The position numbers were made by a program, and so were the translations under genes. The notes below the pieces were generated by a model, which saw only the letters and a list, made by a program, of their open reading frames with translations, made no database searches and was not told where the DNA came from. Shown here in pieces: positions 8,586 to 55,081 of a stretch of DNA of 64,000 bases. Every line of letters starts with the position of its first letter. Within the stretch, counting starts at the first letter, position 1. The DNA is from Nitrincola sp. A-D6. GTDB lineage: Bacteria; Pseudomonadota; Gammaproteobacteria; Pseudomonadales; Balneatricaceae. The DNA is taken from positions 1-64,000 of the forward strand of contig NZ_JRLB01000097.1 of assembly GCF_000764495.1 (NCBI RefSeq). The letters are read 5' to 3'.

Positions 8586-8617
8586 TAATGAACAGCATAC
8601 AACTGAGAGAGAGATCT

Positions 8618-9490
8618 ATGGATAACTTTCGCAACATCGGCTTGATCGGGCGCCTGGGTAGTAAGGCGGTTATCGATACCTTGAAACAGCTCATGCGGTT
8701 TCTGGAAGAGCGCGGCCTGAATGTAATACTGGATGAAAAAATTGCTGAAGTGATGCCAGGCCATGGTCGCCAGACCTGTAAACGCAAGATGATGGGTGAA
8801 ATCTGTGATCTGGCCATCGTTGTGGGTGGTGATGGCAGTTTACTGGGAGCTGCGCGTTCACTGGCACGCAGTGATATTCCTGTGCTGGGAGTTAACCGTG
8901 GTAACCTGGGGTTTCTGACAGATATTTCACCCCAGGATCTTGAAGAACGAGTAGCTGAAGTACTTGAGGGGGGCTACAGTGTTGACAGCCGCTTTTTGCT
9001 GGATGTATCCGTACGCCGAAAGGGCGAGTCGGTTGGGGAGTTGGTGGCCTTGAATGATTGTGTGCTCCATCCCGGTAAAGCAACCCGTATGATTCAGTTT
9101 GAGCTCTATATTGAAGGGCAGTTTGTGTATACCCAGCGCTCCGATGGTCTGATTGTATCGACTCCAACCGGATCGACAGCCTATGCGCTATCAGCAGGTG
9201 GGCCGATTATGCACCCTAAGCTGGATGCGCTGGTATTGGTGCCGATGTTTCCGCATACCCTGTCCAGCCGTCCGATCGTGGTCAGTGGGAACAGCGAATT
9301 GAAGCTGGTGATCAGTGAAGAAAACTCAACTTATCCGACTATTTCCTGTGATGGGCAGGCAGACTTCAGTCTGGTACCGGGTGACGTGATTTCGATCCGG
9401 AAGAAATCGCACAAGCTTCGGCTTCTGCACCCCAGAGATTACAATTTTTATCAAACCTGCCGGGAAAAACTGGGCTGGAGCTCATTGTAG
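8618..9490 (+). CDS. nadK: NAD kinase
   Basis: NAD kinase phosphorylates NAD to NADP in the cytoplasm. The 290-residue protein has the ATP/NAD motif GGDGS at 70-74, VLGVNRGNLGFLTD, the conserved ND pair in LVALNDCVLH, and the glycine-rich STPTGSTAYALSAGGPI followed by PHTLSSRPIV. The start MDNFRNIGLIGR is preferred over the ATG at 8588 because GAGAGAGA precedes it at the right distance and the length matches the family. The final WSSL and the TAG stop lie within a fragment of the intergenic repeat (TGTAGGAGC), so the repeat edge supplies the stop codon. Confidence 0.95.
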   Translation: MDNFRNIGLIGRLGSKAVIDTLKQLMRFLEERGLNVILDEKIAEVMPGHGRQTCKRKMMGEICDLAIVVGGDGSLLGAARSLARSDIPVLGVNRGNLGFLTDISPQDLEERVAEVLEGGYSVDSRFLLDVSVRRKGESVGELVALNDCVLHPGKATRMIQFELYIEGQFVYTQRSDGLIVSTPTGSTAYALSAGGPIMHPKLDALVLVPMFPHTLSSRPIVVSGNSELKLVISEENSTYPTISCDGQADFSLVPGDVISIRKKSHKLRLLHPRDYNFYQTCREKLGWSSL

Positions 9491-9623
9491 GAGCTCATTG
9501 TAGGAGCTCGCTCCGCGAGCGAAGCATCGTCCGGAGACCGGGCTCCTACAATGGATAGAGACGGCACCTTGTGTAGGAGCTCGCTTCGCGAGCGAAGCAT
9601 CGCCCGGAGACCGGGCTCCTACA
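9486..9623. repeat. REP/BIME-like palindromic repeats, two full copies plus a fragment
   Basis: Full copies lie at 9499-9550 and 9572-9623, with a TGTAGGAGC fragment at 9486-9494. Each unit has outer inverted ends TGTAGGAGC/GCTCCTACA and two inner hairpins: CTCGC-tccGCGAG in the left arm and CCCGG-aga-CCGGG in the right. The same family occurs at 28.2, 47.5, 49.0 and 54.7 kb. Confidence 0.93.
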
Positions 9624-28205: not shown

Positions 28206-28212
28206 AAATGAA

Positions 28213-28341
28213 ATCGCCCGGGGACCGGGCTCCTACAAAAAAACCGAACCCTGTAGGAGCTCGCTCTGCGAGCGATTCAAATCGCCTGGAGACCAGGCTC
28301 CAACAAGGTTGGGCGATTCGCCCACAGAGTGGGCTCCTACA
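28213..28341. repeat. REP/BIME-like palindromic repeats
   Basis: A right half-unit (28213-28237), a full unit (28252-28305, with CCTGG-aga-CCAGG as compensatory change in the inner stem) and a variant right arm with a CCCAC-agaGTGGG stem (28314-28341) fill the space between the convergent rlmKL and gltA genes. Paired changes on both sides of the stems suggest selection for structure. Confidence 0.92.
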
Positions 28342-28353
28342 CAAGGCTGGGTT

Positions 28354-36420: not shown

Positions 36421-37627
36421 ATGAGTATCGAAATTAAAGCACCTACATTTCCTGAATCGGTCGCCGACGGTACAGTGGCTACCTGGCATAAACAGCCAGG
36501 CGAAGCTGTGTAACTGATGAGCTGATTGTAGATATTGAAACCGACAAGGTTGTACTGGAAGTTGTTGCACCTGCAGACGGCGTGATCAAAGAGATCGTCA
36601 AGGGTGAAGGCGACACAGTATTAAGCGAAGAAGTACTGGCGATTTTTGAAGCGGGTGCTGTAGCATCAGAAGCCCCTGCAGCAAGTGCAGATTCTCAGGC
36701 AAGTGCCGATACATCAACTACTGATGCAGAAAAAGTCGGCCCGGCGGCACGCAAACTGATTGATGAAAATAATCTGGATGCCACACAAATCAAGGTACAG
36801 GTAAAAACGGTGGCATCACCAAAGAAGATGTCCAGTCTTATCTGAGCAATCGCACTGCTGCACCAGCTGCCGCACCTAAAGCCGCTGCTGCACCAGCTCC
36901 TGCTTTAAATATTCCAGCGGGTGAGCGTGTTGAAAAACGTGTTCCCATGACACGTCTGCGTGCCACCATTGCCAAGCGCCTGGTTGAAGCACAGCAAAAT
37001 GCAGCCATGTTGACTACCTACAATGAAGTCAACATGAAGCCGGTCATGGAATTGCGTAAACAGTACAAAGACCTGTTTGAAAAAACCCATAATGGCACGC
37101 GTCTGGGCTTCATGTCCTTCTTTGTCAAGGCCACTACCGAAGCCTTGAAACGCTTCCCGGGTGTCAATGCGTCACTCGATGGCAGTGATATGGTTTATCA
37201 TGGTTACCAGGATATCGGTGTGGCCGTGTCTACTGAACGTGGCTTGATGGTACCGGTACTGCGTGATACTGACAGCATGAGCCTGGCTGATGTGGAAGCT
37301 ACCATTGCTGATTTTGGCCGGCGTGGACGTGATGGCAAGCTGGGTATGGATGACATGCAGGGCGGAACCTTCACTATCACCAACGGTGGTGTGTTCGGTT
37401 CACTCATGTCTACCCCGATTCTGAACCCACCGCAGACTGCAATTTTGGGTATGCACAAAATTCAGGAACGCCCTATGGCTGTCAATGGTCAGGTGGTTAT
37501 CCTGCCCATGATGTACCTGGCCCTGTCCTACGACCACCGTATGATTGATGGTAAGGAAGCGGTACAATTCCTGGTTACGATAAAAGATTTACTGGAAGAT
37601 CCTGCGCGTTTGCTGCTTGAAGTCTAA
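36421..37627 (+). CDS. sucB: 2-Oxoglutarate dehydrogenase E2, dihydrolipoyl succinyltransferase (two frame lesions)
   Basis: SucB carries the lipoyl group and transfers succinyl to CoA. Order: lipoyl domain with the lipoyl lysine in [14 protein letters not shown], an Ala/Pro-rich linker, the E1/E3-binding domain ([18 protein letters not shown]), a second Ala/Pro linker, and the catalytic domain with [14 protein letters not shown]. The frame breaks near 36509-36513 (after PGEAV) and in the A run at 36803-36807 ([15 protein letters not shown] restored by one A). Repaired length is 402 residues against 405 in E. coli. Confidence 0.95.
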
Positions 37628-37651
37628 GTACGCGGATAGTCACTCAACTGA

Positions 37652-39101
<1,450 letters not shown>

Positions 39102-47459: not shown

Positions 47460-47603
47460 TGTAGGAGCCCGCTCTGTGGGAGCCCGGTCCCCGGGCGAAA
47501 AAAACCTTCGCTCGCAGAGCGAGCTCCTACAGGGGAGGTATTCTCTTGTAGGAGCCCGGTCTCCGGGCGAACAACCTCTTCGCTCGCAGAGCGAGCTCCT
47601 ACA
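47460..47603. repeat. REP/BIME-like palindromic repeats, inverted orientation
   Basis: A broken left arm (from 47460) runs into a nearly full unit ending at 47531, and a full unit lies at 47547-47603. Here the CCCGG-stem arm comes first and the CTCGC-stem arm second, the reverse orientation of the 9.5-kb copies. Confidence 0.92.
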
Positions 47604-48996: not shown

Positions 48997-49003
48997 TATT
49001 CCC

Positions 49004-49143
49004 TGTGGGAGCCCGCTCAGCGGGCGAAAGGTTTATCGCTCACAGAGTGAGCTCCCACAGGGTAGATCCTGTAGGAGCCCGGTCCCCGGGCGAATAAAGC
49101 AATCGCTCACAGAGTGAGCTCCTACAGAATAGAGCTCCTACAG
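49004..49143. repeat. REP/BIME-like palindromic repeats
   Basis: Full units lie at 49004-49059 (ends TGTGGGAGC/GCTCCCACA) and 49070-49126 (ends TGTAGGAGC/GCTCCTACA), with a GAGCTCCTACA fragment at 49131-49143 that overlaps the hisC stop codon. The outer ends co-vary within each unit. Confidence 0.92.
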
Positions 49144-50180
49144 CTTATCGATAAGCTGCGCCATCTCTGCATCAGTACCTATACTGATACGTAAAAACTG
49201 ATTAATCCCTGGCCGGGTGAAGTGCCGCACCAGGATTTTCTCAGCTCTCAAGGCTTGCATCATCTCCAAAGCATCCCGTTCCGGATGGGTGACAAAAATA
49301 AAGTTGGTTGCTGATGGTAGCACTTTGAATCCTTTGCCAGTCAATGCCGCCGTGGTGTGTTCACGGGTGTGCATGATGCGTTTGCAAACTTTTTTGAAAT
49401 AGACATCATCGGCAATAGATGCCGTGGCTGTTTCAATGGCGAGCATATCCAGTGGGTAAGAATTAAAGCTGTTTTTAACCCGCTCCAGTCCGGCGATCAG
49501 GTCGGGATGTCCAAATGCAGCGCCGACACGCATGCCAGCCAGTGAACGTGCCTTGGAAAAAGTATGTGTTACCAACAGGTTAGGGTAGCGTGCAATCAGG
49601 CCGATAGCAGTTTCTGCGCCAAAATCCACATAGGCCTCATCAACCAGTACCAGGCTATCCGGATGACGTTGTAATAACTGCTCAATGCGGTTGAGTGGCA
49701 GGGCGATACCTGTAGGTGCATTGGGATTGGCAAAAATGATCCCGCCATTTTCACGATCATAATCTTCGAGATTGATGCGGAACTCGCTATCCAGCGGAAT
49801 TTTTTCCGGCTCAATCTGTAATAGATCGCAATAGACTTCATAAAAACTGTAGGTGGTTTCTGGCATCAGCAGGGGTTTGTTGTGACGAAAAAACGCCATA
49901 AAGGCTAAGGCAGAACTTCATCGGAGCCATTGCCCAGAAAAATCTGCTCACTTTCCAGGCCGTGGTACTCAGCCAGTGCTGTTTTCAGCTTGCTGGCATC
50001 GGGATCGGGGTACAGGCGCAGCCTGTCGGTTGGAAAATCGTGCAGCACTTGCGTCACGCCAGGTGCTGGAGGGTAGGGGTTTTCATTGGTATTGAGCTTG
50101 ATCAGATCAAGCACTTTAGGCTGCTCACCCGGCGTATAAGGTACCAGGGAGCGGATGGCCGGGCTCCAGAATTTACTCAT
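49138..50180 (-). CDS. hisC: Histidinol-phosphate aminotransferase (one frame lesion)
   Basis: HisC is a PLP aminotransferase of histidine synthesis. Motifs: [65 protein letters not shown], and the PLP lysine in [17 protein letters not shown]. The frame breaks near 49911 (coding CTGGCC to CTGCC); repair gives [18 protein letters not shown] and 347 residues. The C-terminal DKL is followed by TAG supplied by the palindromic repeat. No other his genes are nearby, so an aromatic or second HisC role is possible. Confidence 0.9.
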
Positions 50181-54694: not shown

Positions 54695-54696
54695 CC

Positions 54697-54866
54697 TGTA
54701 GGAGCTCGCCTGTAGGAGCTCGCTCCGCGAGCGATTCGCCCGGAGACCGGGCTCCCACAAAAAAGCAGATCGCCCGGAGACCGGGCTCCCACAGACCGGG
54801 CTCCCACAGACCAGGCTCCCACAACATGGTGGGCACCACCTGTGGGAGCTCGCTCTGCGAGCGATT
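54697..54866. repeat. REP/BIME-like repeats with tandem truncated right arms
   Basis: A left fragment (from 54697), one full unit (54711-54759), then a right arm and two shorter right-arm copies in tandem (GACCGGGCTCCCACA and GACCAGGCTCCCACA, ending about 54823), and a lone left arm at 54841-54866. The stepwise shortened copies suggest replication slippage within the array. Confidence 0.9.
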
Positions 54867-55081
54867 TAAACGTGTTCGTCAAACACGTCGCTGATTTGCT
54901 TCATTAAACGGCGTTCTTCCATCAGATCTTCGATCTGACGGCGCCGTTTACCATTGTATTTGAGGCGGCTGCTGCGGCCGATCTCCTCATCTTCAGAAAA
55001 CTGTTCGCTCCAGTCATCTATCTCATCGATAGAGACTGATCGACACGTACTTTTGTGCCCATCTGTTCTGCTCTCACGCAA
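54866..55081 (-). CDS. Small charged protein resembling the PA3496 family
   Basis: This is a 71-residue hydrophilic protein. The C-terminal half RRRQIEDLMEERRLMKQISDVFDE resembles the PA3496-type family of small putative envelope-integrity proteins; the middle is acidic (DDWSEQFSEDEEIG). The first 15 residues look unconserved. An alternative start in another frame (MGTKVRVDQSL, about 55063) would join the conserved part if one base is missing near 55020-55030, as in other genes here. The stop codon lies at the inner edge of the repeat array. Confidence 0.6.
   Translation of the reverse strand: MRESRTDGHKSTCRSVSIDEIDDWSEQFSEDEEIGRSSRLKYNGKRRRQIEDLMEERRLMKQISDVFDEHV

Follow-up and report, generated by a model that had tools for sequence, protein, structure and literature searches.

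Two genes in this DNA, nadK and hisC, each end with a TAG codon that lies within a copy of one short repeat. This raises the question of whether a repeat can supply a gene with its stop codon and, if so, whether the encoded protein is altered. We addressed it in the window, a stretch of 64,000 nucleotides from Nitrincola sp. A-D6, and by comparison with relatives with and without the repeat. The features at the two gene ends are as follows.

8588..9490, forward strand: nadK (NAD kinase; Pfam NAD_kinase and NAD_kinase_C, the latter at residues 155-280 of 300)
9477..9502, forward strand: two tandem 13-base units GGAGCTCATTGTA, read directly
9486..9494, forward strand: REP head TGTAGGAGC of a partial unit, holding the nadK stop
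9499..9550, forward strand: REPIN 1 (two inverted REPs in one hairpin; fold -31.6 kcal/mol, z -5.5)
9572..9623, forward strand: REPIN 2 (fold -30.8 kcal/mol, z -4.5)
49070..49126, reverse strand: REPIN directly 3' of hisC (folded)
49134..49142, reverse strand: REP head TGTAGGAGC of a partial unit, holding the hisC stop
49138..49899, reverse strand: 3' part of hisC (aminotransferase class I/II)

The initial annotation placed both stops inside a repeat end, and this proved correct. The nadK gene ends TCA TTG TAG followed by GAGC (C-terminus GWSSL), with the TAG at 9488-9490 inside the TGTAGGAGC at 9486-9494. On the reverse strand hisC ends AAG CTG TAG followed by GAGC, with the TAG at 49138-49140 inside the TGTAGGAGC at 49134-49142. 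The partial units that hold these stops lie 13 nt (nadK) and 16 nt (hisC) before the next head. At nadK the first GGAGCTCATTGTA unit starts within coding sequence of the gene that several repeat-free relatives share (TGGAGCTC).

The repeats in Nitrincola sp. A-D6 are REP/REPIN elements of the GTAG class. Each has a conserved GTAG or GTGG head, TGTAGGAGC or TGTGGGAGC, adjoined by a short hairpin, and they occur largely as inverted pairs. A simple pattern found the closing hairpin after 144 of 184 TGTRGGAGC heads in the selected regions of this genome and after 147 of 195 in those of a second carrier species of the genus, G010. The two REPINs behind nadK each folded as one hairpin, and many more such pairs were recognized by eye. 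Copy number is high: the window contains 17 copies of TGTAGGAGC where shuffled sequence gives 0.36, and the whole genome contains 149, compared with 16 for the same pattern read backwards. The elements are mainly extragenic and close to gene 3' ends. Counting far neighbours and contig copies, 3' ends make up 60 of the 87 gene ends that flank arrays in this genome and 52 of 73 in G010, and among arrays of at least two heads only 1 of 47 here and 2 of 37 in G010 are wholly contained in a called gene. The GTAG-tagged REPs of Di Nocera et al. 2013 (PMC3733652) likewise combine a GTAG head with a palindrome, form dimers and clusters and lie beside gene 3' ends. The REPINs of Pseudomonas fluorescens SBW25 (Bertels and Rainey 2011, PMC3116915) are also inverted REP pairs that form one hairpin and cluster beside a RAYT gene; the nadK REPINs measure 52 nt, compared with spacings of 71 and 110 bp between neighbours in SBW25.

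An intact RAYT (REP-associated transposase) of 148 residues is encoded between REP arrays of this genome. It is a Y1 transposase of the REP-associated family, flanked by inverted REPs; it scored 137.6 bits against NCBIfam REP_Tyr_transpos (146.9 bits for the G010 protein; cut-off 80) and matched the solved TnpA-REP structure 4er8 with an E value of 5e-7. In family profile and inverted REP flanks it resembles the RAYT/TnpA-REP proteins described by Nunvar et al. 2010 (PMC2817692; PDB 4er8), with no difference seen in the portions compared. Within the genus this RAYT was found whole only in this genome and G010 (86% identical); distant partial matches (26-27%) were found in G003 and G006, and seven of the 11 genus genomes gave no match. 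The repeats follow the same distribution, with TGTRGGAGCYCG present 147 times in this genome, 165 times in G010 and 0-1 times in the other nine, so that repeats and RAYT occur together in these two genomes only. Other IS200-like genes (PF01797) are present in several relatives, and the nearest RAYT relatives found outside the genus are from Marinobacterium (61-64% identity). Most likely the RAYT encoded between two arrays spread these repeats. Array content at shared sites differs between the two carrier species, which is no more than suggestive of a REPIN that may move as a unit; the empty state is known from the repeat-free genome G001 and other relatives, and insertions are deduced by comparison with these rather than seen directly. 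Outside the genus, G040, of another genus in the same family, holds 131 copies of TGTRGGAGCYCG, against 3 to 22 in four sampled genus-mates (22 in G076; sample of 60 family genomes), apparently a separate expansion.

The RAYT gene itself ends in the same way, TGTAG/GAGC in this genome and TGTAG/GAAC in G010 (the slash marks the end of the stop codon). In 53 of the 75 RAYT loci located in other, named genomes, the rayt stop coincides with a GTAG 15 times, and some of these are not clear REP heads. This agrees with statements in PMC3733652 and in PMC2817692, the latter placing REPs very near or immediately downstream of rayt stop codons.

We next consider how often a repeat carries a stop. Stops were compared in about 340 kb of this genome picked for repeats (the window included, with 135 of the 149 genomic TGTAGGAGC copies), 337 kb of G010 also picked for repeats and 340 kb of G001; genes were called with a home-made hexamer score, and the counts refer to these regions rather than to whole genomes. 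The present assembly has 117 contigs and 7% contamination. Out of 317 genes, 10 ended TGTAG/GAGC, compared with 2 of 245 in G010 and 0 of 281 in G001; the excess of such stops expected by the initial annotation was thus found in the selected regions. With up to one mismatch the numbers rose to 13, 7 and 0. The 13 include both copies of a single gene, present on the overlapping contigs C15 and C25, and the gene at C15 13641-14480 precedes a hairpin unlike this REP. Inspected by eye, 12 of the 13 stops and all 7 in G010 have a REP hairpin or another head behind them.

TAGGAG could also be read as a stop codon overlapping a Shine-Dalgarno-like site of the next gene, with the repeats incidental. 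Such ends do exist without repeats, since nadK ends TAG/GAGC in G003 and TAG/GAGA in G004, and TAG/GAG occurs at 3 of 281 genes in G001. However, the longer TGTAG/GAGC is absent from G001 stops even with one mismatch allowed, a REP hairpin or head follows nearly all of the stops in the carriers, and hisC is followed by a convergent gene, where no ribosome-binding site is needed. We therefore rejected the coincidence on the stop contexts, and consider it very improbable.

TAG usage points the same way. Where a head lay on the stop or within 60 nt after it, TAG was used by 19 of 46 genes, against 46 of 262 other genes (Fisher P 0.0007), and in G010 by 12 of 42 against 22 of 199 (P 0.006), with genes taken as independent and duplicated contigs only partly removed. 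When genes with a head on the stop (up to one mismatch) were left out, TAG remained in 8 of 35 (P 0.48) and 5 of 35 (P 0.57), respectively, indicating that the excess consists of the head-borne stops themselves. Heads also lay at the exact stop position more often than expected: 9 against about 1.8 per position in the two genomes together (P 0.0001), an excess that is partly definitional because any in-frame head near a gene end scores as a stop supplier. Separately, the values were 7 against 1.0 in this genome and 2 against 0.8 in G010, the latter not significant (P 0.20). The distances for this test were entered by hand; C15 genes that recur on C25 were counted once, and a single-head site was included in addition.

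Taken with the RAYT, these results favour a reading to which we give a probability of about 85%: REPs and REPINs of the GTAG class were spread by the RAYT, and a head that falls in frame at a gene end provides its TAG as the stop. For this class of enzyme GTAG is a motif used in recognition and in guiding cleavage, so that every GTAG head brings a TAG. For REP transposases the tetranucleotide has a role in recognition and cleavage-site choice to a degree that varies among enzymes (PMC8266576), and since GTAG matters to the transposase a head that keeps it carries the TAG along. With arrays mostly at gene 3' ends, heads in frame would become stops and the others would remain downstream. A head could be brought into frame there by an additional copy, by duplication of a tail or by a short deletion. 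Tail duplication may bring heads onto stops; it is one possible route because stutters of 13-15 nt are common in the arrays and the stops of nadK and hisC lie in partial units.

That GTAG REPs give TAG stops is already known for this repeat class: according to Di Nocera et al. 2013 (PMC3733652), their GTAG termini often give flanking ORFs their TAG stop codons. A literature search on insertion and palindromic repeats for the wording 'provides the stop codon' returned no match in the text searched; PMC3733652 describes the phenomenon in different terms. What differs here from that study, as far as its available text goes, is that orthologues tell whether the C-terminus changed. They show how a stop codon can be taken over by a putatively mobile hairpin: in most cases the protein stays the same, and in two its C-terminus is altered.

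The proposal that insertions could set C-termini while sparing the genes was borne out in part. Seven genes could be compared with repeat-free relatives; five, hisC included, were unchanged, and two, nadK and a gene on contig C25, were changed in this genome. The comparison covers the head-ended genes with a usable orthologue; for the others the retrieved G001 regions held none, or only a poor match.

Of the nine relatives in the genus that lack the repeat family, five have a nadK protein ending SSKPG, one SSKPGQ, two SSRPS and one (G003) SS, and the present protein ends SSL, a change from GWSSKPG to GWSSL with respect to the SSKPG-type ends. The survey covered 30 loci, the search pattern missing L048, L053 and L060, all outside the genus. 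In G010 the protein ends SSKPGA with TAG/GAGCC, the first exact head lying 14 nt later. The C-terminus thus changed relative to eight of the nine, but G003 has SS followed by TAG/GAGCG with no repeat, the same TAG/GAGC, so this string alone does not prove a repeat. This case counts in part against the interpretation in the initial annotation, which had named such a relative as a refutation. The order at the 3' end of nadK is GGCT-GGAGCTCATTGTA-GGAGCTCATTGTA-GGAGCTCGC, and GGCTGGAGCTC is native nadK coding sequence in several relatives. Because of this, the simplest route at nadK would be a deletion running from the native GGAGCTCA to an identical stretch in a REP tail, which would have taken the last codons and the old stop. 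In the C25 gene (about 36993-39041, reverse strand) a REP arm, TCGCCCGGAGACCGGGCTCCCACA, encodes the last residues, and the TAG of the head that follows ends the protein. Past the end of the alignment it has twelve residues, compared with two in G001 and G010, neither of which has the REP-derived tail. C-terminal residues annotated beside GTAG repeats may accordingly be recent, a point of caution for annotation.

The hisC protein ends at the same residue in G010, G001, G005, G006, G008 and G009, with longer tails in four more distant relatives. A reset of its C-terminus by the repeat was rejected on the agreement with these six. Four further genes with a head TAG (ends LNK, IDQ, PLL/PLR and QFL) are in register with G001, where the first three stop with TAA and the QFL gene with TAG; the IDQ gene has a near-exact head in G010 and a degenerate one here. 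In all, G001 has TAA where a carrier has the head's TAG in 4 of the 7 compared genes, and in these the join appears to fall within the old stop codon, leaving the protein unchanged.

This pattern could also arise if the RAYT aimed its insertions at stop codons, with GTA or TA targets preferred and genes ending in TAA receiving a head at the stop. CTGTAA (hisC), AAGTAA and CAGTAA in G001 correspond to CTGTAG, AAGTAG and CAGTAG, each followed by GAGC, in the carriers; GTA is common to these ends and the head, and the three protein ends are unchanged. Yet many arrays begin 2-20 nt past the stop in varied sequence, neither nadK nor the C25 gene fits this scheme, and selection for an unchanged protein yields the same pattern. 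Moreover, the cleavage sites reported for other REP enzymes in the available part of PMC8266576 are CT or CA, not TA. We regard stop targeting as unlikely, and prefer RAYT-spread heads of which those sparing the protein would be tolerated by selection.

The other arrays and neighbouring genes concerned in the window are the following.

28229..28341: REP array separating convergent genes (the corresponding place in G001 holds a hairpin flanked or marked by runs of A and T)
47460..47603: REP array, beginning 3 nt past the stop of the 45957-47456 gene
54697..54864: REP array, from the 53894-54694 gene to the small gene at 54866-55081
54866..55081, reverse strand: small gene, TAA stop against a REP arm

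The stop of this small gene does touch a repeat arm, as had been noted, but its TAA, followed immediately by the REP arm ATCGCTCGCAGAGCGAGCTCCCACA, is its own and is not supplied by the repeat. Its counterparts in G010 and G001 end in TGA. At convergent gene pairs, arrays sit where G001 has short gaps (window 28206-28353, 48997-49137 and 54695-54865; G001:C32). Six such convergent stretches of G001 folded with -16 to -28 kcal/mol, values taken without a shuffled control; one has clear A/T runs, and the core of one G001 hairpin equals the REP stem core (GCCCGCAGAGCGGGC).

The position of the hairpins could itself have a function, in that REPs up to about 15 nt past the stop would slow termination and tune the expression of nadK and hisC. 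Stable REPIN folds lie right behind both stops, and in E. coli, REPs located no more than 15 nt from a stop are reported to stall ribosomes (Liang et al. 2015, as cited in the available text of PMC12306157); the likeness is a hairpin close behind a stop, seen here in sequence only. The differing array content in the two carriers at shared sites does not suggest a tuned element, however, and we hold this reading as doubtful. A bolder proposal combines two ideas. The TAG within the GTAG guide would be a built-in safety stop, such that GTAG heads, rather than GTGG heads, survive at gene ends by ending translation in frame, guide and stop being one selected feature; and arrays would have displaced hairpins between convergent genes that a relative keeps. 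We consider this speculative and rather unlikely. Taken together with the relatives that lack repeats, the two carrier species form a handy set for dating the spread of the REPs, and could be used to ask whether REPs substitute for terminators.

Several further observations were made. The hisC gene looks frameshifted near 49900 (window 49138-50180), with a 3' ORF of 253 residues and an upstream ORF of 91, where the open frames of ten relatives have 348-391 residues; the break is either an assembly error or real. Contigs C15 and C25 carry near-identical genes and REP arrays, which means that the present assembly has redundant or strain-mixed sequence.

In G010 the REPs crowd one eighth of the chromosome (G010:C1:1080000-1580000, 0.5 of 4.13 Mb). 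This interval, picked after seeing the data, holds 21 of 29 clusters and 56 of 70 TGTRGGAGCTCG sites, as well as the RAYT gene (1555325-1555771); dnaA lies near position 1300. A strand bias of the REPs was rejected, as they occur on both strands. The contigs of the present genome tied to this concentration are C8, C15, C25, C74, C76 and C115. In this crowding, and in the many arrays with stuttered half units, the elements are unlike the SBW25 REPINs as described in the available part of PMC3116915.

These half-hairpin stutters are tandem repeats of the head and the first stem arm, for the most part 13-15 nt long, and occupy the outer edges of arrays (window 9486-9507, 47460-47483, 49118-49142 and 54697-54719; also L108, L109 and L110). 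To our knowledge they have not been described. Together with the clustering in one eighth of the chromosome they may be of more interest than the main finding. Among same-direction head spacings below 40 nt, those of 13-15 nt make up 24 of 32 in the regions of this genome and 29 of 51 in those of G010.
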